From Pantoea sp. A4 (lineage in GTDB: Bacteria > Pseudomonadota > Gammaproteobacteria > Enterobacterales > Enterobacteriaceae), in the NCBI RefSeq assembly GCF_000295955.2, contig NZ_ALXE01000029.1:62001-126000 (forward strand): 64,000 nucleotides of DNA, in the 5' to 3' direction. The first letter of the stretch is position 1; the number at the start of each line of letters is the position of its first letter. The translations under genes and the position numbers were made by a program. The notes under the pieces are model-generated. The model saw only the letters and a program-made list of their open reading frames with translations, did no database searches and was not told the DNA's origin. Of this stretch, positions 7,920-46,610 are shown in pieces.

Positions 7920-8011
7920 CGGATGAAGTCCTTTTATAGGGTGCGAACATTCTGCGCTTGTCTGGCTGTGTTGGGTAATAAGAAAAAGAGCTATCACAAT
8001 TTTCTCCCTCG

Positions 8012-8927: not shown

Positions 8928-10304
8928 TCAGTCGGCGAGCTGCTGCGCGGGATGATCGGCAGGGGGTTCATCATTGCCGGACGGAAACAGACGCTGACGC
9001 AGTGTGGCGTGAGTACCCGCCGGATTCAGGCGACCGCGTGCGCGTAGAACGGGAATCACCCATTGGCTGAAATCCCGGAAGCTCTCGGGTGCCAGCCATT
9101 GGGCAAGGTTAATGCCGTCTGTCTCACTCTCTTCAAGCCACTGCTCAAGGTGATCGGCCACCTGCTCGCCATCACCCACAAAAACACGCTGACGCCCCAG
9201 GCCTTGCGCGGGCAGGAACACCTCACGTAGCGTTTTGCGTGGCTGCCCTGGCTCGCCAGTCACCATTTTCAGCAGTGACTGATTGGCATTGGTGTATTGC
9301 CAGTCAAGCGGGGAGTCGAGATCGTGGCCCGAAAGATCCACGCCGGTACTGGCGGCATAATGGACTAACGCGCCCTGGAGATCATAATATTCACGCAGTT
9401 GGGTAAATTTATGCTGGGCGGCAGCAGCGTTTTCCGCGGTGATGACCGTCACGCCACTAATAAACCGGATGCTCTCTGGCCCGCGCCCATAGTCACGCGC
9501 ACGCTGTTTAATCGCACGGACCTGGCGGCGTACGCCCGCCGCATCCAGACCGGCAACAAACACCACCTCTGCATGACGTGCGGCAAAGTCGATGCCGCGT
9601 GGCGAACCTCCCGCCTGAAACAGCACCGGTGTGCGTTGCGGACTGGGCTCAGAGAGGTGCGCATCAGGCACTGAAAACCAGCGACCATGGTGATTGACCG
9701 GGCGAACTTTGGTTGGATCGGTATAGATGCCCGTCTGTTTATCCCGCCGCAGCGCATCACGCTGCCAGGAGTACTGCCAGAGCTTATAGCTGACCTCCAG
9801 AAACTCATCCGCACGTTCATAGCGTTCATCGTGATCCATCTGTGCATCAAGGCCCAGATTACGCGCCGCGCTGTCGAGTTGCGATGTCACGACGTTCCAT
9901 GCGATACGCCCTTTGGTCAGGTGGTCGAGCGTGGTGAATTTGCGGGCCAGCAGATAGGGCTGTTCATAAGTGGTGGACACGGTAATGCCAAATCCCAGCC
10001 GTTTTGTGGCCGCCGCCATGGCAGAAACCAGCAGCAGCGGATCGATCAGCGGCGACTGAATTCCCTGGCGCAGCGAAGCGGCAGGCGAAGCTTGCCAGTT
10101 ATCCAGCAGCCCGAGTGCATCGGCAATAAACAGGCAATCGAAGTGATTATCTTCCAGCAAACGGGCCAGTTCAGTCCAGTAACTCAGATCGTTGTAACGC
10201 CAGCCCTGCTCATCAGGATGTCGCCACATGCCGTAATTAATGTGAGAAACCGCCGCCATGGTAAAGGCACTGAGAATGATGGGCTTGGGCTGTGTCATGG
10301 GCAT
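8928..10304 (-). CDS. FMN-dependent (luciferase-like) monooxygenase, NtaA/SnaA/DszA family
   Basis: The 458-residue protein has family landmarks: NYGMWRHPDEQ near the N-terminus, FDCLFIADALG, GFGITVSTTYEQPYLLARKF, LTKGRIAWNVVTS, MDHDERYERADEFLEV and HLSEPSPQRTPVLFQAGGSPRG. Members use FMNH2 from a separate reductase plus O2 to cleave C-S or C-N bonds (DszA on sulfones, NtaA on nitrilotriacetate). It is divergent from an ABC importer operon and closely related to the product of the gene at 15587, with which it shares long stretches. The substrate is unknown; an organosulfur compound is the best guess because a DszC-like gene lies nearby. The 219 bp to the importer operon must hold both promoters. 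Confidence 0.88.
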   Translation of the reverse strand: MPMTQPKPIILSAFTMAAVSHINYGMWRHPDEQGWRYNDLSYWTELARLLEDNHFDCLFIADALGLLDNWQASPAASLRQGIQSPLIDPLLLVSAMAAATKRLGFGITVSTTYEQPYLLARKFTTLDHLTKGRIAWNVVTSQLDSAARNLGLDAQMDHDERYERADEFLEVSYKLWQYSWQRDALRRDKQTGIYTDPTKVRPVNHHGRWFSVPDAHLSEPSPQRTPVLFQAGGSPRGIDFAARHAEVVFVAGLDAAGVRRQVRAIKQRARDYGRGPESIRFISGVTVITAENAAAAQHKFTQLREYYDLQGALVHYAASTGVDLSGHDLDSPLDWQYTNANQSLLKMVTGEPGQPRKTLREVFLPAQGLGRQRVFVGDGEQVADHLEQWLEESETDGINLAQWLAPESFRDFSQWVIPVLRARGRLNPAGTHATLRQRLFPSGNDEPPADHPAQQLAD

Positions 10305-10523
10305 CTGCCTGGGTCAAAAGCGGCGATGATAAAGAATTATTTGACCTGGCCTAACCATTAATTCCGGCTATAGATTTGCGGCCTAAGGAAATAAAAATGC
10401 TGGCAAATCAATTGCGAAATGTGCATTTAACCCGCGAAAAAACGCGTGTTACCGTCCCGGAAAATATCAAAAACAGTCTCAGCCTCACCGTGTTGGGCCG
10501 TGTGAAATTTATCGGGGATCACC

Positions 10524-12143
10524 ATGCAAACCAAAACGCCGCCATTGCGTTTCAGCCGTTCGCGTCGTCAGTTTCTGCAACTGTCTGCTTTGGCTTCCAC
10601 CGCTTTTCTCGGCATGGGGTTCTCTCAGCCGCTGTTGGCTGAAGACGAAGAGCGCCAGCGCTATGGTAAAACGCTGGTGGTTGGGCAGGCGCTGGAACCG
10701 ACACTCTACGACCCAAACCGCCAGTACTCCTATGAAACCTATCGCGTTGATCGCCATATCTATGAATCACTGGTGGGGGAAGACTTATCCGTGCCGGCTG
10801 CTCAGGGCACGCCGCCCCTGATCCCGGCGCTGGCGACCCACTGGGAAGTCAACGCCGAGGCCACGGTGTATACCTTTCATCTGCGCCAGGGCGTGAGCTT
10901 TCACGATGGCACACCCTTTAACGCCGAAGCGGTGCAGTTCAACGTGCGCCGCTTTACCGATCCGCAGTTCGAATACTTTGATGCGCGTTCACAAGCCACT
11001 ATGGCTCAGGTCTATCGTCACCTGACGCAACTGGAAGTGATTGATGCCGCGACCGTCGCCTATCATTTCAGCCAACCTTTCCCGGATTTTCTGCGTTTTT
11101 TGCCGCAGGGGAATTGGGTCTCGGGTATTTTCAGCCCGACAGCGCTGAAAAAGTGGGGACAGGATGGACTTGCCGATCACCCCACCGGCACTGGGCCGTA
11201 CCGCTTTGTCCTGCGGGTGCATAATGACCGAACGGAGTTGGTGCGCAATGACGGTTGGTGGGGCAAAAAACCCTACATGGAGAAAATTATCTTTCGCCCA
11301 ATTCTGGACGGCGGCACCGGGATTAGCGCATTGCAGTCTGGTCAGGTGGATATTTTATCGCGAACGCCAACCGACGCCGTGGATCTGCTCAGCCAGAGCG
11401 GTTTCAACGTGCATGACAGTCAGGAGGCGAATCAGCTGTTTCTCGGCTGGAATTTCGCCAACCGCTACACCAGCCAACTGGCAGTCAGACAGGCCGTTAT
11501 CAAGGGTATCGATCGTGAAGGGCTGGTTAAATCATTGCTGAATGGACATGCGGTCGCCAGCTACAACATTGTTAATCATGCCAATGAGGCTTTCCTCGCC
11601 AGCCAGAAAGATTATCTGTACGACCCGGAAGGGGCAAAAAAACTGCTCGCCGAGGCGGGTTTCAAACCCGGTGAGGTCAGTTTCACCATCATCACCTACG
11701 ACCAAAATCAGTCGATCATTGAGTGGATCCAGCGCGATCTCGCCAAAATAGGCATCACGGTCAAGGTCGTTTCACAGGAGTGGATCACTTACAGCTCTCA
11801 CCTGGCGACACTGGCCGAGGATACAGGGTTATTCACCATGGAGTGGGGGCTGATTTCACCACAGTGGCTGAATGTGGCCTGGACCAACTACATACTTGGC
11901 CGGGGCAAAGGTGAGAAAGTTATTACCGGTGTGGCCGATCTGATTAAACAGGCTTCTGTGACAACCGACAAAACCCAGGCGCTGGCGCTGTGGCATCAGG
12001 TGAACCAGCAGTTCCAGCAGCAGGCGGCCTTTGTCCCCCTACTGGCACAAAACCGGGTATTCACCAGTTCGGCTGCGGTGCAGGGCTTCAATGTTCCTGC
12101 GCAAAATTTCTATGATCTGACGCGGGTCTGGTTACGCACATGA
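10524..12143 (+). CDS. ABC importer substrate-binding protein (peptide/nickel family) with Tat signal
   Basis: The 539-residue protein is an SBP_bac_5 (DppA/OppA/NikA-like) binding protein. Typical segments are YETYRVDRHIYESLV, YTFHLRQGVSFHDGTPFNAEAVQFN and GTGPYRF. The N-terminus has a twin-arginine signal (SRSRRQFLQL around residues 11-20) followed by a hydrophobic stretch and a cleavage site near QPLLAEDEE, so it is probably exported folded by Tat. It starts a coupled operon: its TGA overlaps the ATG of the permease gene at 12140. The ligand is unknown; the co-transcribed monooxygenases imply a compound oxidised after uptake. An open frame at 10397-10642 overlaps its start in another phase (see findings). 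Confidence 0.88.
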   Translation: MQTKTPPLRFSRSRRQFLQLSALASTAFLGMGFSQPLLAEDEERQRYGKTLVVGQALEPTLYDPNRQYSYETYRVDRHIYESLVGEDLSVPAAQGTPPLIPALATHWEVNAEATVYTFHLRQGVSFHDGTPFNAEAVQFNVRRFTDPQFEYFDARSQATMAQVYRHLTQLEVIDAATVAYHFSQPFPDFLRFLPQGNWVSGIFSPTALKKWGQDGLADHPTGTGPYRFVLRVHNDRTELVRNDGWWGKKPYMEKIIFRPILDGGTGISALQSGQVDILSRTPTDAVDLLSQSGFNVHDSQEANQLFLGWNFANRYTSQLAVRQAVIKGIDREGLVKSLLNGHAVASYNIVNHANEAFLASQKDYLYDPEGAKKLLAEAGFKPGEVSFTIITYDQNQSIIEWIQRDLAKIGITVKVVSQEWITYSSHLATLAEDTGLFTMEWGLISPQWLNVAWTNYILGRGKGEKVITGVADLIKQASVTTDKTQALALWHQVNQQFQQQAAFVPLLAQNRVFTSSAAVQGFNVPAQNFYDLTRVWLRT

Positions 12144-13093
12144 TACGCCTCATCCTGTTCAGGCTGATCCAGGGCATACCCCTGCTGGTGCTGATGTCAG
12201 TAGCGGTATTCTTGCTGGCGAAGCTGGCACCGGGCGATCCCATTAGCAATGCGTTGGCCGGGCAGCTTTCGCCTGATGCCATTGCGCAAATTCGTCAGCT
12301 TTACGGCCTCGACCAGCCTGCCAGCTGGCAATATTTGCTGTGGCTCAAGAACCTGCTCAGCGGCCATTGGGGGGTATCGCTGACTATGCGCACGCCCGTG
12401 CTGGAAGTGCTGGCTCCGGCATTTATCAACACGCTGATTTTAACCCTTGCAGCGGTGGTGTTGTGCCTGATCCCCGGCGTGGTGGTTGGGGTGGTTTGTG
12501 GCCTGTGGCAGGGGAAGAAACGCGACCGTCTGGTGATGCTGCTGGTGCAGTTCAGTCACAACATTCCGGTGTTCTGGCTGGCGGTCTTTTTTATCTGGTT
12601 GTTCGCCGTCAAACTGCGCTGGTTTCCGGTGTCGGGTATGTATGACATGCGTGGCGATCAGGGAATGGGCGACCTGCTATGGCATTTGTTCCTGCCTGCG
12701 CTTTCCACCGCGCTGATCTCGATGCTGATCCTTGCCCGTCAGGTACGTAGCAGCGTGATTGATATTATGCATGCGGACTTTATGCGCACTTATCGCGCAC
12801 TGGGTTACTCACGACGGGTGCTGCTCTGGCGTCATCTGGGGCGCAATCTGCTGGCACCGATTGTCAGTATTACCGGCTTGCAGGTGGGCTACCTGCTGAG
12901 CGGTGTGCTGTTTATTGAAAAAATTTTTGCCTGGCCAGGCCTTGGTACGCAGTTGTACAACGCTGCGGCTGGACAGGATTATCCCACCCTGCAAACCGGG
13001 GTCATGCTGGTGGCGACCTGTTTCCTGTTGGTCAACCTTGTGAGCGATCTGCTACAGGATGGGCTGGATCCGCGCCATCGGGAGACCTTCTGA
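12140..13093 (+). CDS. ABC importer permease, DppB type
   Basis: This 317-residue inner-membrane protein begins MIRLILFRLIQGIPLLVLMS, the usual DppB/OppB start. It has six predicted membrane segments and the cytoplasmic loop that contacts the ATPase (DFMRTYRALGYSRRVLLWRHLGRN, about residues 213-236). It carries GDPISNALAG in the periplasmic N-terminal domain, where the family usually has GDP. It overlaps the binding-protein gene (ATGA) and the next permease gene (TGATG). It pairs with the DppC-type subunit to form the channel. Confidence 0.9.
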   Translation: MIRLILFRLIQGIPLLVLMSVAVFLLAKLAPGDPISNALAGQLSPDAIAQIRQLYGLDQPASWQYLLWLKNLLSGHWGVSLTMRTPVLEVLAPAFINTLILTLAAVVLCLIPGVVVGVVCGLWQGKKRDRLVMLLVQFSHNIPVFWLAVFFIWLFAVKLRWFPVSGMYDMRGDQGMGDLLWHLFLPALSTALISMLILARQVRSSVIDIMHADFMRTYRALGYSRRVLLWRHLGRNLLAPIVSITGLQVGYLLSGVLFIEKIFAWPGLGTQLYNAAAGQDYPTLQTGVMLVATCFLLVNLVSDLLQDGLDPRHRETF

Positions 13094-13935
13094 TGACATT
13101 GCTACGTGATATTGCCCGGCAGCGGCTGGCGCTGCTCGGGTTACTGCTGCTAGTGAGCCTGATTGCCATCAGTGCACTGGCACCCTGGCTGGCGCCCTAT
13201 GATCCTCTCCGTGCTTTTGATGGACTGCGCCTCGCACCACCCGGTACACCGCAGCACCTGTTGGGACTGGATAATCAGGGGCGCGATATCCTCAGCCGGC
13301 TGATTTGGGGCGGTCGTAGTACGCTGGGGGCCGCTATTCTGCCCGTGTTATTTGCCGCGCTGGTGAGTCTGATACTGGGCATGCTGGCAGGTTATCGCCC
13401 AACGCTACTCTCCACCCTGATTATGCGCACGATGGATATGCTGTTTGCCTTCCCCATGGTGCTGCTGGCCATCGGCCTGTCTGCGGTGCTGGGGTCGGGG
13501 TATCTCACTGTGACCGTCACGCTGATTTGCAGCGTGATCCCCTATCTGACTCGTATCGTCTACCGCACGACGCGCAGTGAAATGGCGAAAGAGTACCTTG
13601 AAGCCCTGCATGCACAGGGGGCAAGCCATGGGGATATTTTATGGCGCGAGTTACTGCCCAATGTCATTACGCCGCTGGTGACCTACACCACTTCCCTGTT
13701 AGGCGGCATGGTGGTGTTTCTGGCCGGTTTAAGTTTTCTGGGATTAGGTGTTCAGCCGCCACAGGCGGACTGGGGCCGGATGGTGGGGGAGGGATCTCCG
13801 CTCATGATTATGGGTGCCCCCCACGTGGCGACGGTGCCCGCACTGGCCATTGTTCTGGTCTCTCTGGCGTTTAACTGGTTGGGCGATGGCCTGCGCGACC
13901 TGCTTGATCCACACCGGTCAGGAGGTGAAGGGTGA
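13093..13935 (+). CDS. ABC importer permease, DppC type
   Basis: The 280-residue permease has an N-terminal membrane helix followed by HLLGLDNQGRDILSRLIWGGRSTL, the hallmark of DppC/OppC subunits. The coupling loop is EYLEALHAQGASHGDILWRELLPN. LAGLSFLGLGVQPPQADWGRM near the C-terminus is also typical. It shares one base with the upstream permease gene and overlaps the ATPase gene by four bases, indicating translational coupling and a defined subunit ratio. Confidence 0.9.
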   Translation: MTLLRDIARQRLALLGLLLLVSLIAISALAPWLAPYDPLRAFDGLRLAPPGTPQHLLGLDNQGRDILSRLIWGGRSTLGAAILPVLFAALVSLILGMLAGYRPTLLSTLIMRTMDMLFAFPMVLLAIGLSAVLGSGYLTVTVTLICSVIPYLTRIVYRTTRSEMAKEYLEALHAQGASHGDILWRELLPNVITPLVTYTTSLLGGMVVFLAGLSFLGLGVQPPQADWGRMVGEGSPLMIMGAPHVATVPALAIVLVSLAFNWLGDGLRDLLDPHRSGGEG

Positions 13936-15590
13936 GCTTACTGACGGTAGCAGGATTGCAGGTGCAATTTGATCGCCAGCCCGAGGTTGTCAAAGGCATT
14001 TCGTTCGAGATTCAGCCGGGTGAAGTGGTGGCGCTGGTGGGGGAGTCGGGTTCAGGTAAAAGCGTGACCGCGGCTGCCATTCTTGGGTTACTGCCCTCAG
14101 CGGCCCAGGTACGAGGCGACATTCACTTTTCCGGCGAGGATCTTTTGCGCCTGTCGCCAAGCGGGCTGAATCGCCTGCGCGGGCAGGCGATCGCCATGGT
14201 GTTTCAAAATTCGCTCTCTACGCTCGATCCCTCCTGGACTATCGGCAAACAGTTACAGCACAACCTGCGGCGGCTGGAGCCCACCTGGGGGCGAAAAGCG
14301 CTACGCGAATCAGCATTAGATTGGCTGAAACGGATGCACATCCGTCAGCCGCAGCAGGTGATGCAGCTCTATCCCCATCAGTTAAGCGGGGGGATGCGAC
14401 AGCGGGTGCTGATCGCTCTGGCGGCCATGTGTCGCCCCCAACTGCTGATTGCCGATGAGCCGACGACCGCGCTGGATGCCAGCGTGCAGCGTGAAGTGCT
14501 GGAACTGTTGCAGGCGCTGTGTCGTGAACAGCAGATGGCGATGCTGTTGATCAGTCATGATTTTGCTGTAGTCGCGGCATTAAGCCAGCGAGTGTTGGTG
14601 ATGCAACAGGGCAACATTGTGGAAAGCGCGACAACCCAGGCGTGTATTGGTCGCCCGCAGCATGCTTATACCCGCGCCCTGCTGGCGGCGGTTCCTCAGC
14701 CAGATGTCAGATCGGAAATCCCTGTGAAGCACGGTGACATACTGCTTAGCACCGGACAAGTTGGGCGGGATTTCTGGCGGCGCGATGCTCGCCGCTGGTG
14801 GTCAGGCAAGGTTGCGGTCAGGGCGGTGGATGACGTCACGCTGACCATCAGAGAAGGCGAAATTGTCGGGATTATCGGTGAGTCTGGATCAGGGAAATCT
14901 ACCCTGGCGCGCTTGCTGGCTCAGTTACTGCCAGCCGATCGTGGCTCAGTCGCCTGGCAACAAAACCCGATTAACCGCCAGAATGTCGGCCAAATGGCGG
15001 AATTTCGTCGCCAGATACAGTGTGTTTTTCAGGACAGCCTCGCCAGTTTTAATCCCCGACTGCGCCTCAAAGAACAGCTGATCCGTGCCCAGCTGCGTCT
15101 CGGCAGTGCCGACCAGCGTCAGCAGGCCGCCACCCGTGCAGCGGCACTGTTTAATGAAGTCGGGCTGGACGCCACACTGCTAAACCGCTATCCGCATCAA
15201 CTTTCCGGTGGGCAACGTCAGCGCGCCAATATCGCGCGGGCACTGGTGACCGATCCGCGTTGCCTGATCCTCGACGAACCCACATCAGCACTGGACCTTT
15301 CGGTACAGGCTCAGGTGATCGCACTGCTACGGCAGCTGCATCTGAGTCACGCGCTGACCTGTCTGTTTATCAGTCATAACCTTGCGCTGGTTGCGCAGTT
15401 TTGTCAGCGCATTGTGGTGATGGAGCAGGGGCGCGTCGTGGATGATTTTCCGCGTCAGGCGCTGTATGACCAAGAGCGGCATCCGGTAACGCAGCGGTTA
15501 CTGGCGGCCAGTTATCTGCTGCCCGAAGATGCATTGCCGACCCACAGTGGCGTGTATCACAGCGATGTACCAAGAGGAGTGACAGCGTGA
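13932..15590 (+). CDS. ABC importer ATPase, fused DppD-DppF type
   Basis: The 552-residue protein has two complete nucleotide-binding domains in one chain. Each has a Walker A (GESGSGKS near residue 37 and again near 315), a signature (LSGGMRQR and LSGGQRQR) and a Walker B (LLIADEPTTALD and LILDEPTSALD). It powers the importer formed by the two upstream permeases. It starts at a GTG within GTGA overlapping the permease stop, and its own end overlaps the GTG start of the monooxygenase gene at 15587. Separate DppD and DppF proteins are the more common arrangement; fused versions such as GsiA are known. Confidence 0.9.
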   Translation: MSLLTVAGLQVQFDRQPEVVKGISFEIQPGEVVALVGESGSGKSVTAAAILGLLPSAAQVRGDIHFSGEDLLRLSPSGLNRLRGQAIAMVFQNSLSTLDPSWTIGKQLQHNLRRLEPTWGRKALRESALDWLKRMHIRQPQQVMQLYPHQLSGGMRQRVLIALAAMCRPQLLIADEPTTALDASVQREVLELLQALCREQQMAMLLISHDFAVVAALSQRVLVMQQGNIVESATTQACIGRPQHAYTRALLAAVPQPDVRSEIPVKHGDILLSTGQVGRDFWRRDARRWWSGKVAVRAVDDVTLTIREGEIVGIIGESGSGKSTLARLLAQLLPADRGSVAWQQNPINRQNVGQMAEFRRQIQCVFQDSLASFNPRLRLKEQLIRAQLRLGSADQRQQAATRAAALFNEVGLDATLLNRYPHQLSGGQRQRANIARALVTDPRCLILDEPTSALDLSVQAQVIALLRQLHLSHALTCLFISHNLALVAQFCQRIVVMEQGRVVDDFPRQALYDQERHPVTQRLLAASYLLPEDALPTHSGVYHSDVPRGVTA

Positions 15591-16993: not shown

Positions 16994-16994
16994 C

Positions 16995-18215
16995 ATGAGT
17001 CACGCCGAGGATATTTACGCAGGTGTCAGTCCTGCTGAGTTCACCCACTGGAAACAGGTAGCACACCAGGTCGCCGGAAAATTGCGCAGTAGCCTGCTGG
17101 CGCGCGATCGGGCCAATCAGCACCCCCATGAAGAGATCGACTGGCTGCGCCAGAGCGGGCTGCTCAAACTGGCAGTACCCAAATCACAGGGTGGCGGCGG
17201 GGCCGATCTGGTCCAGGCATTGGAGATCAGCCGCATCATCTCAGCGGCGGACGGCTCCCTGGGACAGTTAATTGCCTATCACTACTCTAACGGCGTCTGG
17301 AGCTACATTCTGGGTACCCGTGAGCAGTGGCAGTTTATTGCTCAGGGCGTGGCGGAACAGGGCTGGTTCCAGTCCAGTATCAGTAATCCGCGCGATCCGC
17401 GCCTGCAAATTGAGTGGGACGGCGAAGATTTACTGGTGTCCGGACGGCGCACGTTCGCCACCGGAGCCGCTGTCTCACAGGTGATGACCATTGCCGTCTG
17501 GGTGGAAGACCAGCTGGTGCAGTACCAGATCACTGCCGATCGCCCGGAGATCCAGTTCAATGATGACTGGGATAATCTTGGCCAACGGCTCACCGCCAGC
17601 GGCACGTTGCAGTTCAACCGTCTGCGCCTGCGGCCAGAAGATCGGCTCAGCGGATTAGAACAGCAGCCGGAAAGCGCGGTATTGCGCAACGCACTGCGTA
17701 ATCAATTCAGTCAGTTGATCTTCGTTCATTTCTATTTAGGCATAGCAGAAGGGGCGTTACAGCAGGCGGCTCACTATTTCCGCGAGACGGTGAAACCCTG
17801 GCCAGAGTCTGGCGTTGAACAGGCACTGGACGATCCCTACCACCGCCTGAAAGCCGGTGAGCTGGCCTCTGAACTGGCCGCGGGTATTGCGCTGGCCGAA
17901 AAAACCGCGCATGCGTATCAGACCGCTTTCCACGCTGGCGATACGCTCACGGAACAGCAGTTTGGTGAGCTGGCGATCTTAACCGATCAGGCCAAAGTGA
18001 TTGCCAACAATGTGGCGCTAAAAGTGACGCATGAACTGTTCGAACTCACTGGCGGACGTTCAACCGGGAATCACTATGGGCTGGATATCTACTGGCGCAA
18101 TGTCCGTACCCATACGCTGCACGATCCGGTGACGTATCGCACGCGTGAAGTGGGTGATTACCTGCTCAGCGGTAAGCTGCCGGTGCCACGGGTTTACGTG
18201 CCACCGAAGGCCTAA
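16995..18215 (+). CDS. DszC/SfnB-like flavin-dependent oxidoreductase of the acyl-CoA dehydrogenase superfamily
   Basis: The 406-residue protein has the acyl-CoA dehydrogenase fold pattern: N-terminal helical domain (DWLRQSGLLKLAVPKSQGGGGADL), middle beta domain, and C-terminal helical domain. Near the end it carries the ELTGGRSTGNHYGLDIYWRN and RTHTLHDPVTYRTREVGDYLL elements, which match the DszC/SfnB sulfur-acquisition branch rather than true fatty-acid enzymes. DszC-type proteins use FMNH2 and O2 to oxygenate a thioether or sulfide. I chose the ATG at 16995, behind AAGGAATAAC; a longer frame inside the upstream gene is spurious. It sits 1 bp after the DszA-like gene, suggesting consecutive steps on one substrate. 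Confidence 0.85.
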   Translation: MSHAEDIYAGVSPAEFTHWKQVAHQVAGKLRSSLLARDRANQHPHEEIDWLRQSGLLKLAVPKSQGGGGADLVQALEISRIISAADGSLGQLIAYHYSNGVWSYILGTREQWQFIAQGVAEQGWFQSSISNPRDPRLQIEWDGEDLLVSGRRTFATGAAVSQVMTIAVWVEDQLVQYQITADRPEIQFNDDWDNLGQRLTASGTLQFNRLRLRPEDRLSGLEQQPESAVLRNALRNQFSQLIFVHFYLGIAEGALQQAAHYFRETVKPWPESGVEQALDDPYHRLKAGELASELAAGIALAEKTAHAYQTAFHAGDTLTEQQFGELAILTDQAKVIANNVALKVTHELFELTGGRSTGNHYGLDIYWRNVRTHTLHDPVTYRTREVGDYLLSGKLPVPRVYVPPKA

Positions 18216-18224
18216 GGAGCCGCA

Positions 18225-19433
18225 ATGGTAAAGGTTGCCATCATTGACGACGACGCCACGCTGGAAGCGGCTGCGACGCTGTTTCGCCAGGCGATGTTTG
18301 GCCTGCCAGGCGGCGTCACACCCACCGAAAACTGGGTCGCGCATTATCTTGAGCCGGGTCGCGTCTGGGGCGCGTGGCTGGAAGGGGAACTGGCCGGAAC
18401 GGTGAACAGCTACACCAGCGCCATGACGTTACCCGGCGGAGCCACTGTACCCCATGCTGCGGTGACGCACGTGGGGGTACTGCCACACTGGAGCCGACGC
18501 GGGGTCTTGCGCGCACTGTTCTCGCAGCAGTTAGCTGAATTTTATCAGCGCGGTATTGCGGTTGCTTCACTGCGAGCGTCTCAGGGCAACCTCTATCGCC
18601 GCTTTGGTTACGGGCTAGCGAGCTGGTTACACAGCGTTCAGATTGACAAGCGCGAACTGGGTGCCACTGCCCCCTCAGAAGCCCGCATTCAGCTGTTAAG
18701 TGCCGGTGACGCCTGGCAACAACAGCAGCAAATAGCACAGCGTTTCCCGCTGGCGCGCGCCGGGACGCTACAGCGCTGGCCGCAGTGGTGGGCACTGCAA
18801 CAGCACCGGCTGGCGCAAAGTTCGCTTAATCATTATGTCGCGCTCTTGCATGAGCAGGGCGAAGCACAGGCCTTTGTGCGTTATCACGCCCAGCCCAATG
18901 ATAACTGGCTCTACAGCCCGGAACGTACGCTGGTGGTGGACGATCTCCATGCTGCGGATGCCCGCCACTACGTCAGCCTGTTGCGCTACCTGTTGCAGTT
19001 GGATATCACCCGTTTGGTGCGCTTTGCCAGTCGTCCCGTGGATGACGTGCTGCCACTGCTGCTTGATAACCCGCGCGCGGTGCAGACCGAAGCGCGTCGA
19101 GATGAGAGCTGGCTGAGAATTATTGATGTTGGTCGCGTGCTTAACACCCGTCAGCTCAGCGGCGATCAATCGGTCCGACTGGCAATCGTTGACCCACTGC
19201 TACCCCACAACCAGGGGCACTGGCAACTGACACCGGAAGGTGCCTGTCATACCGAGCAACCTGCGGAGTTGACGCTCAGCGTGGATGCGCTGGCAATGTT
19301 ATTGCTGGGCGGGCATCAGGTCAGACAGTTAGTCGAAAGCCAACAGATTACTGTTCATCACCGCACCGCACCGGCGCGGCTGGCACAGCTGTTCGCCAGC
19401 GATCAACAGCCCTGGGCGGGTATTTTTTTCTGA
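18225..19433 (+). CDS. Eis-like GNAT acetyltransferase with C-terminal SCP2-type domain
   Basis: The 402-residue protein matches the Eis architecture: an N-terminal GNAT domain (THVGVLPHWSRRGVLRALF around residues 81-99 is the acetyl-CoA motif), a second GNAT-like domain, and a C-terminal sterol-carrier-like region. NLYRRFGYG (Tyr124) matches the segment holding the catalytic Tyr of mycobacterial Eis. The chain ends in Phe402, as in Eis, where the terminal carboxylate acts as base. Eis enzymes acetylate amines such as aminoglycosides or lysines. A strong AAGGAG site precedes it, 9 bp after the DszC-like gene, so it belongs to the same operon. Here it may acetylate a pathway intermediate or protect against one; this is inference. 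Confidence 0.8.
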   Translation: MVKVAIIDDDATLEAAATLFRQAMFGLPGGVTPTENWVAHYLEPGRVWGAWLEGELAGTVNSYTSAMTLPGGATVPHAAVTHVGVLPHWSRRGVLRALFSQQLAEFYQRGIAVASLRASQGNLYRRFGYGLASWLHSVQIDKRELGATAPSEARIQLLSAGDAWQQQQQIAQRFPLARAGTLQRWPQWWALQQHRLAQSSLNHYVALLHEQGEAQAFVRYHAQPNDNWLYSPERTLVVDDLHAADARHYVSLLRYLLQLDITRLVRFASRPVDDVLPLLLDNPRAVQTEARRDESWLRIIDVGRVLNTRQLSGDQSVRLAIVDPLLPHNQGHWQLTPEGACHTEQPAELTLSVDALAMLLLGGHQVRQLVESQQITVHHRTAPARLAQLFASDQQPWAGIFF

Positions 19434-19456
19434 TTTTTTCACCAGGAGAGTTTGCT

Positions 19457-21208
19457 ATGGGCCATTTACGCCCTGCTGTGATTCATAGTGCGCTGCTGTG
19501 CGCACTGCTGACCGGTGTTAGCGCCAACGTCAGCGCAGATGAGGCACCAAAACCCGGCGGTACGCTGCGTATTGCCTCGCTTCAGCCCGATATGGACGCG
19601 TTTGATCCTCTTACCGGTTATTCGGTGGATTCGTGGGAGATCCTGCGTGCGGTGACGCGCCAGTTGGTGACTTATCCCGGCTCGGAGAAAAGCCTGAAAG
19701 ATGACACCACGCTGGTGCCCGACCTGGCGAAATCGTGGGACGTCAGTGCCGACGGTAAAACCTACACCTTCCATCTGCGGGACGGGATCCGCTATGCCGG
19801 ACCCACCACGCGCCCCATCGTCGCAAAGGATTTTGTCTATGCGATTAAACGCTTCTGCGATCCCAATAAGCAGGTGGCCGCAGTAAATTACTTCAACCTG
19901 GCTTTTTCCGGTTTCGCTGAGTATTGCAAGGCGTTCAGTCAAGTGCCCACCGGCGATTTGGCGGCCAGCAAAGCGTTTATCGACAGCCATGAGATCCCCG
20001 GCGTCAGTGCGCCAGATGATAAAACGCTGGTGCTGCGATCTGACAGTAAGAACTACGATTTCCTCAACATTCTGTCTATGAACTTCGTTACGCCGTTACC
20101 GGAGGAGGTCGCGTCACGCTATTTCCCGGATTCGCTGGCGTTCCGACAGAATTTCCCCTCCAGTGGCCCTTACGAGGTCGCGAACTACGTTAGCGGTCAG
20201 CAACTGGTGTTAAAGAAAGTGCCCGGCTACAACCACGAGGCCGATCCGGCGCGTAAAGCTTACGTTGATCAAATCGATATCAGCTTTACCGGCAACACCG
20301 AAGACAGCGTAGTGCAGCGGATTCAGGCAGGTGACGCAGACCTGTCGCTGTATCTGGATGTGCCGCCACAGGCTGCGCTGCGTCAATATCTGTTACGCAA
20401 CAGCCCTGATTTACACAGTGCTAACAGCGGTGCCGCTAACTTCATTTCAATTAACGCCCAGCCACAGGCGAAAAGTCCCGGTGCAACCGCGCTGCGGGAT
20501 TTACGCGTGCGTCAGGCGCTGGACTATGCCATTGATAAAGCACATATCGTACAGGCTCAGGGGGGCAAAATTGCCGCTCTGCCTCTCGGGCAGATCATTA
20601 CCAGTACGCTGCTAGGGCATGAAACCTTCGATCCTTACGCCACACCCGGCAGTAAAGGGGATGTGGAGAAAGCGAAAGCCTTGCTGCAACAAGCTGGTTT
20701 TGCACAAGGGCTGACGCTGGACCTGGTCTACCGTGCCAATAACCAATTCAGCACTATTGCGGTGATCCTGAAAGAAGATGTCGCTAAAGCGGGGATTAAA
20801 CTCAACCTGATCCCGCTCCCGCCACCCCAGTTTATGGCTTATCTGCAAAGTCCGACCAACCGCTGGGATCTGGCATTAGGCCAGACCTCCCCGGACTGGC
20901 AGGGTCCAGCCACACGCATGTTGCTCGGTGGCTGGCTCAACTCGGATGCCTCCCCTTGCGGACGTGGTAACGTCTATGCCATCTGCTACAGCAACCCGCA
21001 GCTGAATGCGCTGGCAAAACAAGCCTATGCGTCTGATAACCCCGGGCCGCTATGGCAACAGGCGGATAAACTGGTGTCAGCGGACCTGCCGTGGATACCG
21101 CTGTTTGAGAAACGCCGTGTGGTAATCACCTCTGATCGGGTGACTCACTGGACCTGGTCTTCACTGGCGACGCAGGCAGATATCACCAACATCGCTTTGA
21201 AGCCCTGA
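19457..21208 (+). CDS. ABC importer substrate-binding protein (peptide family), second system
   Basis: The 583-residue protein is an SBP_bac_5 member with an ordinary Sec signal peptide (hydrophobic stretch about residues 9-25, cleavage near ANVSADE). It contains TYTFHLRDGIRYAGP, FPSSGPYEVANYV and RVRQALDYAIDKAHI. It differs clearly from the Tat-type binding protein at 10524. It lies 23 bp after the Eis-like gene and 10 bp before its own ATPase gene, so transcription probably continues through from the first importer operon. The ligand is unknown. Confidence 0.88.
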   Translation: MGHLRPAVIHSALLCALLTGVSANVSADEAPKPGGTLRIASLQPDMDAFDPLTGYSVDSWEILRAVTRQLVTYPGSEKSLKDDTTLVPDLAKSWDVSADGKTYTFHLRDGIRYAGPTTRPIVAKDFVYAIKRFCDPNKQVAAVNYFNLAFSGFAEYCKAFSQVPTGDLAASKAFIDSHEIPGVSAPDDKTLVLRSDSKNYDFLNILSMNFVTPLPEEVASRYFPDSLAFRQNFPSSGPYEVANYVSGQQLVLKKVPGYNHEADPARKAYVDQIDISFTGNTEDSVVQRIQAGDADLSLYLDVPPQAALRQYLLRNSPDLHSANSGAANFISINAQPQAKSPGATALRDLRVRQALDYAIDKAHIVQAQGGKIAALPLGQIITSTLLGHETFDPYATPGSKGDVEKAKALLQQAGFAQGLTLDLVYRANNQFSTIAVILKEDVAKAGIKLNLIPLPPPQFMAYLQSPTNRWDLALGQTSPDWQGPATRMLLGGWLNSDASPCGRGNVYAICYSNPQLNALAKQAYASDNPGPLWQQADKLVSADLPWIPLFEKRRVVITSDRVTHWTWSSLATQADITNIALKP

Positions 21209-21218
21209 CGAGGTCTCT

Positions 21219-22853
21219 GTGACGCTGCTTCGTATCCGTCAGTTAACCGTGGGACCTGAGGATGCTGCACCGCTGGTGCAGCACGTTAACCTGAGCGTGG
21301 AAAAGGGGGAAACGCTGGCGATTGTGGGTGAGTCCGGTTCGGGAAAAAGCCTGACCATGCTGTCAGTGCCTGGCTTGTTACCGCCGGGCATTCGCGCACA
21401 AGGATCGGTGACGTTAAACGGTCAGTCGCTGCTAGACCTGCCAGCGTCTCAGCTACGAGCGCTGCGTGGATCTCACATTGGCTATATTTCTCAGGACCCA
21501 CTGAGTAACCTGCATCCGTTGAAAAGTATCGGTCGGCAGATTGAAGAGGCGATTCTGGCACACCATAAGGTGCCGCGTCGTGCGCTACAAGCCCGGGTAC
21601 TGGCGCTGCTGGAAGAGGTGGGGATCAGAGACGCGGCCCGGCGTTATCACGATCGGCCGGCCCGGTTTTCCGGTGGGATGCGGCAGCGGGTGATGATTGC
21701 CATCGCGATTGCGCTGAACCCGTCGTTGATCATCGCCGATGAGCCGACAACAGCACTGGATGCCACCGTGCAGGCTTCGATTCTGCAACTGCTCAAGCGA
21801 CTGCAACAACAGCACGGCTGTGCTCTGGTCTTTATCAGCCACGATTTACGCGTTGTGGCGGATATTGCTGACCGCATCGCGGTCATGCAGCAGGGCAAGG
21901 TTGTAGAGCAGGGGCCAGCGCAATTGCTGTTCCGTGCACCGCAGCACCCCTACACCCGCAGTTTGTTACAGGCGGGGCATATCCCCCTAAAAACCTACGA
22001 TCTGGCGGGTGCGAAGCCGTTGTTGCAGGTGGAAGATCTGGCGCGACAATTCCGGCAGCAGCGTCTGTTTGGCCGGTCAGGCCACATCCATACGGTGCTG
22101 GACGGCATCAGCTTCACGTTGCATGCCGGTGAGATAGTGGGGCTGGTCGGCGAGTCGGGATCGGGAAAAACAACGCTCGGGCGCACGCTGGTGGGGCTTG
22201 ATGCACCGGATCGCGGCCAAATAGACTTGAACGGTGCGACATGGCTGCGTGCCGGTGGCGCATTGCCTGACTGGCACCATCCGCAGCGTCATCTGGTGCA
22301 GATGGTGTTTCAGGACCCTTACAGCAGCCTCAATCCGCGCCGTCGTCTGAGTGACACCCTGGCGGAGCCATTGCAAATACGTGCTGGCCAACGTGACGGT
22401 AAACCGCTGTCAGCGGCGGCCCTGGCTAACGCGGTGGATCAGCTGCTGCAAACTGTAGAACTGGCACCCGAACTCCGGCATCGCTATCCCGCCCAGCTTT
22501 CCGGTGGACAGCGCCAGCGAGTCGCCATTGCGCGCGCGCTGGCGCTGGAACCACAAATTATCGTGGCAGATGAAGCGGTGTCTGCGCTGGATATCACTAC
22601 GCAGCAGCGCATTGTGCAACTGCTGTTGCGCCTGAGGGCTGAACGCGGGCTGGCCATACTGTTTATCTCACACGATCTGGCTGCGGTGGCAGCATTGTGC
22701 GATCGGGTCATGGTGCTACAGGACGGACGTATTATCGAACAGGGGCTGACGGCACAGGTATTTACTGCGCCGCAGCAGCCATGGACCCAGGCGCTGCTGA
22801 ATGCGCTGCCTGGTCAACACAGAGAGAGAGATTATGGCGCAGCATCTGCTTGA
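21219..22853 (+). CDS. ABC importer ATPase, fused DppD-DppF type, second system
   Basis: The 544-residue protein has two nucleotide-binding domains, each with Walker A (GESGSGKS and GESGSGKT), signature (FSGGMRQR and LSGGQRQR) and Walker B (LIIADEPTTALD and IIVADEAVSALD). In the second, Pro of the usual DEP is replaced by Ala. The start is a GTG at 21219, with GAGG upstream. It energises the permeases encoded next. Its 3' end overlaps the following permease gene by 20 bp. It is a paralogue of the ATPase at 13932. Confidence 0.9.
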   Translation: MTLLRIRQLTVGPEDAAPLVQHVNLSVEKGETLAIVGESGSGKSLTMLSVPGLLPPGIRAQGSVTLNGQSLLDLPASQLRALRGSHIGYISQDPLSNLHPLKSIGRQIEEAILAHHKVPRRALQARVLALLEEVGIRDAARRYHDRPARFSGGMRQRVMIAIAIALNPSLIIADEPTTALDATVQASILQLLKRLQQQHGCALVFISHDLRVVADIADRIAVMQQGKVVEQGPAQLLFRAPQHPYTRSLLQAGHIPLKTYDLAGAKPLLQVEDLARQFRQQRLFGRSGHIHTVLDGISFTLHAGEIVGLVGESGSGKTTLGRTLVGLDAPDRGQIDLNGATWLRAGGALPDWHHPQRHLVQMVFQDPYSSLNPRRRLSDTLAEPLQIRAGQRDGKPLSAAALANAVDQLLQTVELAPELRHRYPAQLSGGQRQRVAIARALALEPQIIVADEAVSALDITTQQRIVQLLLRLRAERGLAILFISHDLAAVAALCDRVMVLQDGRIIEQGLTAQVFTAPQQPWTQALLNALPGQHRERDYGAASA

Positions 22854-23766
22854 TGGACCACCGGGGGTGGCAGGCGTTTCGTTCTGGCAGCGGCTATGGC
22901 AGGAGAAAACGGCGCGACGCGGTATTGTGCTGGTGGCATGCGTGGTGTTGGCGGCACTTTGTGCACCGCTGGTCGCGACGCTGACCGGGCATGCTGAGAC
23001 CCAACAGTTTCGCGACACCGCGCTGTCTGACATGGGGATCCCCATCGGGCCGTCACGCGCATTTCTGCTGGGTGCGGATGATAACGGTCGTGACGTGCTG
23101 GTACGCACGCTGTATGGCACACGCATCTCGCTCCTGGTGGCGTTGCCTGCGACTTCCCTCGCGCTGGTAACAGGCTTACTGGTGGGGCTGTTGGGCGGTT
23201 ATCGTGGCGGAAAAACCGATGCACTCTGTCAACAGTTGATTAACCTGGTGCTCTCTTTTCCGTTTGTGGTAACGGCGTTAAGCCTGCTAGCCCTGAATCT
23301 GGCGGGGAGCGAGGGGCCGCGTGTCAATCCGGCCTGGGTGGTGATCTTCATCATCAGCTTTTTCTCATGGGGCTATTTTGCCCGTCTGACGCGCAGCCTG
23401 GTACTGGATCTGCGCCAGCAGCCCTATGTCTCCGCTGCGCAGCTGATGGGGCTCTCCAGCCGCCGCATTATCTGGCGTGATATTTTACCCGGTGTGTTAC
23501 CCGCGGTCGGGGTTTACTGGGCGATTCAACTGCCGACCAATATTATCGCCGAAGCCACGCTCTCGTTTCTGGGCGTGGGTATTCCCGCGCCTGCTGCCAG
23601 CCTCGGAAACATGATTGCTGATGTGCAGCGTTCAGCGATGTACCAGGCGCAACCCTGGTTTTTGATTGCCCCTGCGCTGGCATTATTTCTGACGGTATTG
23701 GGATTTAACTGCCTGAGCAGTGGCCTGCGTAATGTACTCGATCCCCACATGGAGACCCGCCGATGA
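22834..23766 (+). CDS. ABC importer permease, DppC type, second system
   Basis: This 310-residue membrane protein contains LLGADDNGRDVLVRTLYGTRISL and FLGVGIPAPAASLGNM, both typical of DppC subunits. The coupling loop is QPYVSAAQLMGLSSRRIIWRDILPG. I chose the ATG at 22834, preceded by a GAGAGAGAG purine run, within the end of the ATPase gene. Its TGA overlaps the ATG of the next permease gene. In this system the C-type permease precedes the B-type, the reverse of the first importer. Confidence 0.88.
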   Translation: MAQHLLDGPPGVAGVSFWQRLWQEKTARRGIVLVACVVLAALCAPLVATLTGHAETQQFRDTALSDMGIPIGPSRAFLLGADDNGRDVLVRTLYGTRISLLVALPATSLALVTGLLVGLLGGYRGGKTDALCQQLINLVLSFPFVVTALSLLALNLAGSEGPRVNPAWVVIFIISFFSWGYFARLTRSLVLDLRQQPYVSAAQLMGLSSRRIIWRDILPGVLPAVGVYWAIQLPTNIIAEATLSFLGVGIPAPAASLGNMIADVQRSAMYQAQPWFLIAPALALFLTVLGFNCLSSGLRNVLDPHMETRR

Positions 23767-24755
23767 CGGTTTATCGCCTGTGCAGCACCGTCCTCCGTGC
23801 CTTGCTGACGTTGCTGCTGGTACTGATCCTGGCTTTCTTTTTAACTCGCGTCGCCTATCAGGATCCGGCGGTGATGTTGGCACCCCGTAATGCCACGGCG
23901 GAGGCGATCGCTGCCATTGCTCGTGCGCTTCACCTTAACGATCCCTGGTATCAACAGCTGCGCTACTTTTTACTGCGCGGCCCTGAAATACAGGGTGCGC
24001 CGGTGGGGTTATTGCACTGGCCACCCGCGCTTGGCTACTCGTTCCGTTTTCAGACTCCTGTTACCCAGCTTATTCTGGCGAAAGCGCCAGTGACGCTGTC
24101 ACTTGCGCTGGGCTCGCTGGTGATCTGGATGGCGATCTCACTGTTAACCGGTGTGCTGGCGGCACGCTATCAGGGACGTTGGCTGGATCGTTTGCTGGGG
24201 CTGTTTTCCTATGCCGTGCTTTCGCTGCCGACCTTCTTAAGTGGAATGCTGCTCATCTTCTTCCTTTTCTATCAGCTGTCGCTGCATAACCTGAACTGGT
24301 TTCCGGCGGGCGGCTATGTGGCGTTAACGGAAAATCCGTGGCAGTGGGCGCGCCATCTGTTGCTGCCGTGGTTAACGCTGGCGCTGGCAGAAGCAGGTAT
24401 TTTCCAACGGGTGTTACGCGCCAGCTTGCTGGAGGTGCTGCACCGCGATTATATCCGCACGGCTCGTGCCAAGGGAGTGGGTGAGTGGCGGATCTATTTC
24501 GACCATGCGTTAAAGCCCGCTTTCAGCCCGGTGTTGGTGCTCACCGGGATGGAACTGGCAGCCATTATGGGCGGGGCGATAGTGACCGAGCAGATGTTTG
24601 GTCTTGACGGGATAGGCAGGCTGGCAATCAGCGCCGCCCTGGACGGCGATTTTCCTGTGGTAATAGGCACCACCGTGTTTGCTGCTGCCGTGTTTATTAT
24701 TTGTAATCTGGTGGCGGATCTGTTGCATAGCGCTTACTACGGCGATACGCATTAA
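23763..24755 (+). CDS. ABC importer permease, DppB type, second system
   Basis: The 330-residue permease begins MTVYRLCSTVLRALLTLLLVLILAFFL, and carries the DppB coupling loop DYIRTARAKGVGEWRIYFDHALKP and the EQMFGLDGIGRLAISAALDGDFPVV end. It is the last gene of the island and is followed by a strong hairpin 3 bp after the stop. Together with the upstream subunits it forms a second complete peptide-type importer. Confidence 0.88.
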   Translation: MTVYRLCSTVLRALLTLLLVLILAFFLTRVAYQDPAVMLAPRNATAEAIAAIARALHLNDPWYQQLRYFLLRGPEIQGAPVGLLHWPPALGYSFRFQTPVTQLILAKAPVTLSLALGSLVIWMAISLLTGVLAARYQGRWLDRLLGLFSYAVLSLPTFLSGMLLIFFLFYQLSLHNLNWFPAGGYVALTENPWQWARHLLLPWLTLALAEAGIFQRVLRASLLEVLHRDYIRTARAKGVGEWRIYFDHALKPAFSPVLVLTGMELAAIMGGAIVTEQMFGLDGIGRLAISAALDGDFPVVIGTTVFAAAVFIICNLVADLLHSAYYGDTH

Positions 24756-24963: not shown

Positions 24964-25989
24964 TTAAAGCGGGTTAATGTCACCAAACCACGAGTAGCGA
25001 GTGTAAGTGATCAGCGGCAGAATAATCCGCGAGCTACTGATATTTTCCGGTGGTTGGCTGGCAATATCGATCGCCTGCTTGACGACACGCTTCATGTCGT
25101 AAGAGAACACCACATCCATGTCGCCCTGTTCCAGCAGCTTCTGCGTATGCTCAGTCAGGTCATGACCGACAAACACGATATCCTGTGCTAGCTGTGCTTC
25201 TTTAATGGCGCGCGCAATGCCGCGATTACCGCCCGCTGAATTATAAATCCCGACGGTGCCTGGATTTTTCGCGAGGAATTTGGTCATTAACGCGTAGGTC
25301 TTGTCGGATTCGTCGTTAGAGATAAAGGTCTCTTCAATCTCCAGACCAGGGAAATCACTGCGGATCACCCGGCGGAAGCCCATCTCACGCTCTTCCTGAC
25401 AGCGGTAAGTGGCGCTGGCGACGAACAGCAATTTTTTCGCCTCTGAACGTGCCATCCGACCAATAAACAGCGCGGCGTTAGCGCCTGCGCTGACTTCATC
25501 CACCCCGACATAGGCGCTGGCTGAAGGCAAGTCAGTGACCAGCGCGATCACCGGTACGCCATTGGCAATTGCCTTACGCACTTCACTGTTAACCTGAACA
25601 TGGTCGCGTGATACCAGAATAATGGCATCCGCTTCCGCGCTGCGTGCCGCGATCAAAGGGCAGAAACTGGCGGGGTCAAACTGGTAACCGGGGACGCTGT
25701 CAAAGCTAAAACTGATATGCGGATAGTACGCCTTTAGCTGCTCCATCGCCTCACGTACGGTTTGGGCAAAGCTGGAACCGGCCTCAATGATAAAGGCGAT
25801 GCGCTGGGTGGCTAACTCTTGTTGCTGTGCCTGCTGCGACTGAGCAATCGCCGCTTCAACCCGCAAGCGGGTACTTTCACGCACGCCAGGACGCTGATTT
25901 AACACGCGGTCAATCGTCGCCGTGCTGAGCCCGGAAATACGCGCAATTTCATGAATGGTGATCTTTTTATGAATGCTGGGTTTTGTCAT
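24964..25989 (-). CDS. LacI-family transcriptional regulator
   Basis: The 341-residue protein has an N-terminal LacI helix-turn-helix (TIHEIARISGLSTATIDRVL, about residues 11-30, then NQRPGVRESTRLRVEAAI) and a periplasmic-binding-like sensor domain (IVLVSRDHVQVNSEVRKAI-type segment, IYNSAGGNRGIARAIKEAQ). It resembles the regulator at 35121 along its length, so the two are paralogues on either side of the sugar operon at 27012-34852. It probably represses that operon or part of it; the effector sugar or polyol is unknown. Confidence 0.88.
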   Translation of the reverse strand: MTKPSIHKKITIHEIARISGLSTATIDRVLNQRPGVRESTRLRVEAAIAQSQQAQQQELATQRIAFIIEAGSSFAQTVREAMEQLKAYYPHISFSFDSVPGYQFDPASFCPLIAARSAEADAIILVSRDHVQVNSEVRKAIANGVPVIALVTDLPSASAYVGVDEVSAGANAALFIGRMARSEAKKLLFVASATYRCQEEREMGFRRVIRSDFPGLEIEETFISNDESDKTYALMTKFLAKNPGTVGIYNSAGGNRGIARAIKEAQLAQDIVFVGHDLTEHTQKLLEQGDMDVVFSYDMKRVVKQAIDIASQPPENISSSRIILPLITYTRYSWFGDINPL

Positions 25990-45908: not shown

Positions 45909-45925
45909 ATTTGAGATGAAGAACG

Positions 45926-46594: not shown

Positions 46595-46610
46595 AACAGG
46601 AGTTTTACCC

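Follow-up and report, generated by a model that had tools for sequence, protein, structure and literature searches.

We analysed a 64,000-nucleotide stretch of the Pantoea sp. A4 genome (NZ_ALXE01000029.1, positions 62,001 to 126,000; hereafter the window, to which all coordinates refer). Pfam and NCBIfam scans place in it an 11-gene array on the plus strand (10524-24755) that encodes an ATP-binding cassette (ABC) importer, a luciferase-like monooxygenase (LLM2), a DszC/MsuC-type monooxygenase, an Eis-like acetyltransferase and a second importer; the gene of another luciferase-like monooxygenase (LLM1) is divergent from the array. This operon is probably a scavenging system for sulfur starvation, which imports an organosulfur compound, N-acetylates it, oxidises its sulfur, cleaves the carbon-sulfur (C-S) bond oxidatively and frees sulfite; we infer the order of these steps, the substrate class, the role of the acetylation and the sulfite product. 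Each part is of a known kind, and the combination itself looks new. The initial annotation had proposed organosulfur uptake with oxidative sulfur release, and this proposal is supported by the conserved neighbourhood, by SsuD/MsuD-like and second MsuC/DszC-type partners in relatives, by the scarcity of methionine and cysteine, and by the co-variation of Mycobacterium abscessus MAB_4123 with sulfur genes. Among the papers listed by a full-text literature search that covered mostly papers outside subscription, none describes a pathway with the full gene set, and the annotation likewise knew of none; a description in other papers, such as one accompanying the structures 8cda or 6yca, is possible.

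In the proposed scheme, the two peptide-type importers would take up organosulfur compounds, and the ligand of importer 2 would carry a free amino group (peptide- or amino-acid-like) for the Eis-like enzyme to N-acetylate. Using reduced flavin mononucleotide (FMNH2) and O2, the DszC/MsuC-type enzyme would place oxygen onto sulfur, either from thioether to sulfoxide or sulfone or from sulfinate to sulfonate. The DmoA-like LLM2, with LLM1, may then cleave C-S bonds oxidatively; the products would be an aldehyde and a sulfur fragment in a higher oxidation state. An SsuD/MsuD-like enzyme, which many relatives encode within the cluster and for which this strain would have to rely on paralogues on other contigs, would free sulfite, and SsuE would reduce the flavin.

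The gene neighbourhood is conserved. A scan with a 20-sequence alignment of DszC-like proteins, run against 84,980 species at one genome each, yielded 195 confirmed relatives; the 80 best loci were retained for analysis, and some of them have short flanks, where absences weigh little. We call the 22 loci with a DszC-like match at least 50% identical (L009-L029 and L082) close loci and these together with L125 and L126 the 24 related loci. Counts were taken from tblastn tables because the gene calls behind the 22-locus clustering came from a crude caller, which mis-called some loci at high G+C. At 19 of the 22 close loci, the DszC-like gene has an Eis-like gene no more than about 10 kb away, and at 17 the two are adjacent. 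Close loci with both genes span Enterobacterales, alphaproteobacteria and actinobacteria, and neighbourhoods that combine DszC-like, Eis-like and LLM genes occur in two phyla; this recurrence and the link to Eis look new. At the three close loci without an Eis-like match, the contig ends inside the gene (L012) or the host is Variovorax (L018) or Jiangella (L020), and tblastn saw no Eis-like gene at the other 58 loci, some with short flanks. The full order, LLM1 and importer 1 followed by LLM2, DszC-like, Eis-like and importer 2, recurs in Kluyvera, Klebsiella, Enterobacter and plasmid pPAT9B01 of Pantoea sp. At-9b, with LLM1 kept beside the operon in these genera, so the arrangement is not due to chance. 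Additionally, six alphaproteobacterial loci among the 22 (L013-L016, L027 and L029) and Paracoccus plasmid pAMI4 have a second DszC-type gene beside an LLM1-type gene; the copy in Paracoccus is closest to MsuC, if only slightly (232.6 bits, versus 224.3 for DszC). The DszC-like gene is rare: it occurs in 2 of 295 genomes within the window's own family, 1 of 401 in the M. franklinii family and 2 of 394 in the family of Mesorhizobium locus L015. The Eis-like gene adjoins it in four of these five genomes; the fifth has the same contig coordinates as L012, where the contig ends inside the gene, and its linkage cannot be judged.

Composition points the same way as the neighbourhood. With start methionines excluded and related proteins treated as independent, the methionine and cysteine (Met+Cys) content is 1.87% for the 12 cluster genes versus 3.59% for 33 other open reading frames (ORFs) hand-picked from the window's ORF list. 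The DszC-like protein has one methionine and no cysteine in 406 residues (0.25%), and SBP1, the binding protein of importer 1, has four methionines and no cysteine (0.74%); the values are 1.00% for the Eis-like protein, 1.28% for LLM2, 1.53% for LLM1, 1.55% for the second binding protein, SBP2, and 1.47% for the ATPase of importer 2, ATP2. Means over the related loci are 0.11% for DszC-like (24 proteins), 0.47% for Eis-like (21), 0.58% for LLM2 (23), 0.59% for SBP1 (11) and 1.30% for SBP2 (12), where a single LLM gene may be the best match for both LLM1 and LLM2. Since the family-5 binding proteins of the Pantoea sp. A4 genome span 0 to 3.75%, SBP1 lies at the low end yet is not unique. In Rhodococcus IGTS8, depletion of both residues in DszA, DszB, DszC, SfnG, TauD and other proteins has been read as sulfur sparing (PMC8557817).

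A partner for the proposed last step recurs as well. Of the 24 related loci, 10 have an SsuD/MsuD-like gene, which immediately precedes the DszC-like gene every time. Among solved structures, the copy from Kluyvera is most similar to 7jv3 (331.7 bits), which we take to be MsuD, and the four SsuD-like copies scored reach 373.7 to 441.2, below the SsuD equivalog cut-off of 518.2. Structures of MsuD have been reported (PMC8234197). In Pantoea sp. A4 itself, SsuD-like genes lie on contigs C37 and C50 (52% and 51% identical, respectively), and one SsuE gene lies on C50 (229.1 bits, cut-off 164.05).

A link to published expression data comes from Mycobacteroides, where DszC-like, Eis-like and LLM genes stand in a row at all five loci. 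Compared with the window, the DszC-like protein is 50-53% and the Eis-like protein 37-39% identical, in the same order; an amino acid permease replaces the importers there, and tblastn gave no SsuD-like match at the five loci. The permease precedes the DszC-like gene at four of them (L021, L023, L024 and L025), and the script called none at L026. The structures 8cda and 6yca are 83-90% (over 202-203 residues) and 80-86% identical, respectively, to proteins of L021 and L023-L026. In M. franklinii (L023), the Eis protein is 86% identical to the 6yca stretch and its DszC-like neighbour 90% identical to 203 residues of 8cda. The eis1 gene of M. abscessus is MAB_4124 (PMC6839843), and the order permease, monooxygenase, eis1 (MAB_4122 to MAB_4124) agrees with L021 and L023-L025. 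Judging from name, gene order and identity, MAB_4123 is probably 8cda and an orthologue of the DszC-like protein; a literature search for the PDB code 8CDA returned only unrelated papers among the matches listed. In a sigH deletion mutant relative to wild type, MAB_4122 ('putative amino acid permease') and MAB_4123 ('Probable monooxygenase') change by log2 values of -4.40 and -4.92, and the sulfate/sulfonate ABC genes MAB_2461 to MAB_2463, SsuA/SsuB (MAB_2218/2217) and the alkanesulfonate monooxygenase MAB_1060 fall with them (PMC13340314, Table 2); MAB_4124 is not in that table.

The individual enzymes are relatives, rather than copies, of named ones. Both LLMs score above the curated cut-off (279.7 bits) of TIGR03860, the NtaA/DmoA subfamily of flavin mononucleotide (FMN)-dependent monooxygenases. 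The initial label, DszA/NtaA-type, was thus right about the subfamily and wrong about DszA, an identification we reject, because DmoA (6ak1) is nearer to LLM2 (523.9 bits, versus 252.0 for DszA) and to LLM1 (439.2, its best solved relative, versus 246.5). LLM2 also matches the 'alkane monooxygenase' 3b9n (446.6 bits), YtnJ (CmoJ; 209.6) and, distantly, the EDTA monooxygenase 5dqp (136.7). The nearest solved relative of the DszC-like protein is 8cda ('Probable monooxygenase'), followed by DszC (249.8 bits) and MsuC (218.4). Its scores lie below the equivalog cut-offs for DszC (NF043015, 271.3 of 850 bits) and SfnB (TIGR04022, 267.0 of 430.9); the gene previously described as DszC/SfnB-type is present, its identity with either enzyme is not sustained, and the DszA and DszC in the title of that description are analogies. 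Gln91 and Thr156, invariant in a 20-sequence alignment, align with His92 and Ser163 of DszC, residues that we take to bear these numbers and catalytic roles. By sequence comparison, the protein looks like a clade of its own, to which the substrate of DszC cannot be transferred.

The Eis-like protein shows the architecture implied by its first label, namely a GNAT domain, a second GNAT-type domain and an SCP2-like C-terminal domain, all above Pfam cut-offs. Its nearest solved relative is 6yca (242.6 bits), followed by Eis2 (124.3) and the 'Enhanced intracellular survival protein' 3ryo (90.8). It matches six NCBIfam models without reaching the cut-off of any; among them are the Eis equivalogs NF002364 (102.8 versus 701 bits) and NF002368 (165 versus 576) as well as PRK01346.1-3 (348.2 of 624) and PRK01346.1-4 (246.3 of 259). 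We therefore assign neither protein to DszC, SfnB or Eis.

The array encodes two complete ABC importers of family 5 (Opp/Dpp-type), at 10524-15590 and 19457-24755, each made up of one binding protein, a pair of permeases and a fused double ATPase; the domain scans bear out their earlier description as peptide-type. PDB searches with both binding proteins returned only broad family-5 relatives, HbpA, YliB/GsiB and DppA being among the best named ones for SBP1. The DppA columns were fixed on a DppA-like protein of the same genome (L102), chosen as the genome's best family-5 match and not by a DppA model. On this basis, SBP2 has an aspartate aligned with the amino-group-binding aspartate of DppA, presumably Asp408, and keeps it in 12 of 12 relatives compared, whereas SBP1 and its nine compared relatives have no aspartate there; at the DppA arginine position, two alignments disagree and neither is reliable. 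The ligand of importer 2 thus probably has a free amino group and is peptide- or amino-acid-like. Together, this aspartate and the Mycobacteroides amino acid permease suggest that the organosulfur substrate resembles an amino acid or a peptide, and such a substrate would also explain the presence of an N-acetyltransferase.

The genes are listed in Table 1, and all are open frames at the coordinates given. Because neighbours between 10524 and 24755 overlap or lie at most 23 bp apart throughout, consistent with the overlapping genes first reported, the array is likely a single transcript, as predicted from gene spacing. The start chosen for the DszC-like gene, an ATG just after the LLM2 stop, lies inside a longer mechanical ORF (16767-18215). 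A LacI-type regulator downstream (24964-25989) was rejected as a member of the system, its sole relative in the 22-locus clustering being elsewhere in the window. On the other side, LLM1 is separated from an ilvD-type dehydratase (5508-7349) by a stand-alone GNAT acetyltransferase (7371-7997, minus strand); the gene adjoining LLM1 on the Pantoea plasmid is a different one.

Table 1. Genes of the proposed sulfur-scavenging locus (window coordinates)
Gene and product	Coordinates	Strand	Evidence
LLM1, DmoA/NtaA-type FMNH2-dependent monooxygenase	8928-10304	-	TIGR03860, 504.9 bits
SBP1, family-5 periplasmic binding protein, importer 1	10524-12143	+	PF00496
PermB1, permease	12140-13093	+	PF00528, PF19300
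PermC1, permease	13093-13935	+	PF00528, PF12911
ATP1, fused double ATPase, importer 1	13932-15590	+	two ABC_tran stretches
LLM2, DmoA/NtaA-type monooxygenase, proposed C-S bond cleaver	15587-16993	+	TIGR03860, 528.2 bits
DszC/MsuC-type acyl-CoA-dehydrogenase-fold monooxygenase, proposed S-oxygenase, 406 aa	16995-18215	+	Pfam/NCBIfam; 8cda, 434.4 bits
Eis-like GNAT N-acetyltransferase, proposed acetylator of substrate amino group	18225-19433	+	PF13527, PF17668, PF13530
SBP2, family-5 binding protein, importer 2	19457-21208	+	PF00496
ATP2, fused double ATPase, importer 2	21219-22853	+	two ABC_tran stretches
PermC2, permease	22837-23766 (start chosen; alternative 22801)	+	Opp4C/GsiD-type matches, below cut-offs
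PermB2, permease	23763-24755	+	Opp2B/Opp4B-type matches, below cut-offs

Several observations weigh against a sulfur-scavenging pathway of this form. The SsuD-like gene is not in the window and was not found at 14 of the 24 related loci, where flanks are in some cases short; any sulfonate-to-sulfite step must therefore come from elsewhere in the genome and, judging from the SsuD-like paralogues on other contigs, could be supplied in trans. In Variovorax (L018), no Eis-like gene accompanies the DszC-like and LLM genes, at L019 and L082 the Eis-like gene lies 5-7 kb from the DszC-like gene, and the Mycobacteroides LLM is only 34-38% identical to LLM1 and LLM2. ATP1 (3.09%) and the four permeases (2.4-4.1%) are not clearly depleted in methionine and cysteine, and depletion is just as strong in the 58 more distant DszC-type proteins (0.07%), so that it marks the wider DszC-type family and not this clade alone. 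With both the DszC-like and the Eis-like protein below the equivalog cut-offs, chemistry cannot be transferred from DszC, SfnB or Eis. The M. abscessus genes named above show a similar difference when the wild type is compared with the complemented strain, and little difference when the mutant is compared with it (PMC13340314); their change is therefore a co-variation with sulfur genes and neither evidence of SigH control nor proof of a regulon. Finally, among the 401 genomes of the M. franklinii family, 86 have an Eis-like match (E <= 1e-40) and only one has the DszC-like protein (E <= 1e-100), and close module genes lie within 1.5 kb at only two (L172 and L174) of the 30 best Eis-like loci (L150-L179).

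The Eis-like group is accordingly wider than the sulfur module, as 25 of these 30 loci have no module gene nearby and three have distant relatives only (an ATPase at L152 and L165, an LLM of 26% identity at L169). The module genes at L172 and L174 are SsuD-like (62%), ATP2 (50-51%) and LLM1 (59%). In the family of Mesorhizobium L015, an Eis-like match is found in 5 of 394 genomes, and at four of the five a DszC- or SsuD-like gene lies alongside; where a genome search had many candidates, only four per genome were scored, and misses are possible. The Met+Cys median is 0.50% for cluster-linked Eis-like proteins (27 rows) versus 1.49% for unlinked ones (32 rows), an indicative comparison only because rows are related. 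The unlinked rows include L152, L165 and L169 as well as L183, which has importer-permease relatives nearby; three rows (L144, L145 and L146) that are the same genes as L015, L023 and L022 were dropped, and the identical pair L029/L182 was kept. On the Eis-like tree, the linkage label needs 4 changes versus about 20 expected by shuffling. At L172, L180 and L181, an Eis-like gene stands beside an SsuD-like gene with no DszC-like gene in the 1.5 kb flanks fetched, a possible reduced version of the module. It is conceivable, although we lean against it for now, that an Eis-type subgroup including M. abscessus Eis1 consists of amino-acid or peptide N-acetyltransferases of an undescribed trans-phylum desulfurisation pathway (N-acetylation, S-oxygenation, cleavage by an NtaA/DmoA-family enzyme, sulfite) and is not primarily drug-modifying or host-directed.

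Alternatively, the locus might salvage cysteine in the manner of the Bacillus subtilis yxe (2SC) and cmo systems, in which the sulfur is kept: an S-substituted cysteine would be N-acetylated, oxidised, dealkylated to N-acetylcysteine (or its sulfenate) and deacetylated. The logic is the same, with an acetyltransferase followed by an NtaA-family C-S monooxygenase (YxeK; in the cmo system, CmoJ once CmoO has oxidised the sulfur) and deacetylation last, and the yxe locus has an ABC importer (PMC9706529, PMC10863075). The free-amino-group signature of SBP2 and the amino acid permease of the Mycobacteroides loci would suit such a substrate. We nevertheless consider this salvage unlikely. Nine M20 queries, covering that family only, matched no candidate N-acetylcysteine deacetylase in the window, and an M20 deacetylase occurs at just 1 of the 24 related loci (Paracoccus), in another gene block. 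The SsuD-like gene at 10 of 24 loci speaks for complete desulfurisation, and LLM2 is much nearer DmoA than CmoJ/YtnJ. Furthermore, the S-oxygenase of the window has an acyl-CoA-dehydrogenase fold, its acetyltransferase is Eis-like and its importers belong to family 5, all unlike the B. subtilis systems.

A second alternative is a route of the dimethyl sulfone type, in which the LLMs would cleave small sulfides or sulfones, the DszC-like enzyme would take the MsuC step and SsuD would act last, leaving the Eis-like enzyme an unrelated task such as modification of a toxic by-product. The Pseudomonas SfnG-MsuC-MsuD pathway, which converts dimethyl sulfone to sulfite, indeed uses the same classes of enzyme, namely FMNH2-dependent C-S cleavers of group C and a group D S-oxygenase with an acyl-CoA-dehydrogenase fold, in a sulfur starvation setting, and the part of its description consulted names no such importers or acetyltransferase (PMC8234197). 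DmoA is the nearest solved relative of both LLMs, SsuD/MsuD-like enzymes occur at 10 of the 24 related loci though not in the window, and Eis-like homologues are common without a DszC-like gene. The window differs in having DmoA/NtaA-type LLMs in place of SfnG, and its enzymes stay under the equivalog cut-offs for SfnB and SfnG. Peptide-type importers should be superfluous for small volatile sulfur compounds, the Eis-like gene accompanies the DszC-like gene at most close loci and is sulfur-sparing like the others, and the DszC-like protein is slightly nearer DszC than MsuC. We give this route little credence. The dszABC (4S) pathway of dibenzothiophene desulfurisation resembles the locus in setting a DszC-type S-oxygenase beside a DszA-superfamily LLM and in its sulfur-sparing proteins (PMC8557817), and differs from it in the DszC score, the residues at His92 and Ser163, the DmoA-like LLMs and the peptide-type importers. 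No DszB-like gene is among the genes identified at the locus, although no search was aimed at DszB.

A nitrogen- or carbon-source cluster, for example one degrading aminopolycarboxylates of the nitrilotriacetate or EDTA type, is very improbable. The membership of the LLMs in the NtaA/DmoA subfamily would fit it, but we reject it on composition and neighbours: methionine and cysteine are scarce, relatives have SsuD-like and MsuC-like partners, M. abscessus sulfonate genes co-vary, and the EDTA monooxygenase is distant. The initial annotation had named such neighbours as the finding that would overturn it, and no nitrogen- or carbon-source gene recurring across genera was seen in the 22-locus clustering, in which genes recurring only within the Mycobacteroides loci were left unannotated; one gene (c24), mannonate dehydratase-like by eye, recurs in two Mesorhizobium loci. 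Least of all do we expect detoxification or antibiotic modification, in which the Eis-like enzyme and the monooxygenases would inactivate an imported or ambient bioactive compound. Mycobacterial Eis enzymes are indeed named for resistance and survival (PMC6839843, and likewise in their PDB names), but the locus has two importers and not an exporter, a sulfur-sparing composition and, in relatives, an SsuD-like monooxygenase.

Beyond the operon, the Pantoea sp. A4 genome looks like that of an organosulfur specialist. It has 23 LLM and 23 SBP_bac_5 matches. Four further clusters of family-5 ABC and luciferase-like genes lie on contigs C18, C20, C26 and C45, and C37 has a cluster of DszC-type, LLM and SsuD-like genes (together L132-L136); the LLM, DszC-type and binding proteins of these clusters contain 0-1.4% Met+Cys. 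The cluster L134 (C18:86000-103000) brings together two M20 amidohydrolases, LLM genes and a binding protein free of methionine and cysteine (544 aa, 0.00%), and resembles cysteine salvage of the yxe/cmo type. Within the window, a third LLM (47402-48709) has a small amino-acid-type ABC importer (SBP_bac_3) directly upstream and a BCCT transporter adjacent. The genes of this region (45171-48709) contain more methionine and cysteine (2.1-3.7% in three genes counted), and it is possibly a separate uptake locus.

To our knowledge, routes that free organic sulfur are known for some compounds only. Sulfur in aerobic soils is mostly organic (PMC3839906), and a conserved module of importer, acetyltransferase, S-oxygenase and C-S monooxygenase would constitute a new route of sulfur release with a testable class of substrates. 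The same core enzymes recur in distant bacteria, including relatives of Mycobacterium abscessus. If this interpretation is correct, an Eis-type enzyme would gain a role in physiology, whereas work on its relatives has mainly concerned drug resistance and macrophage survival.

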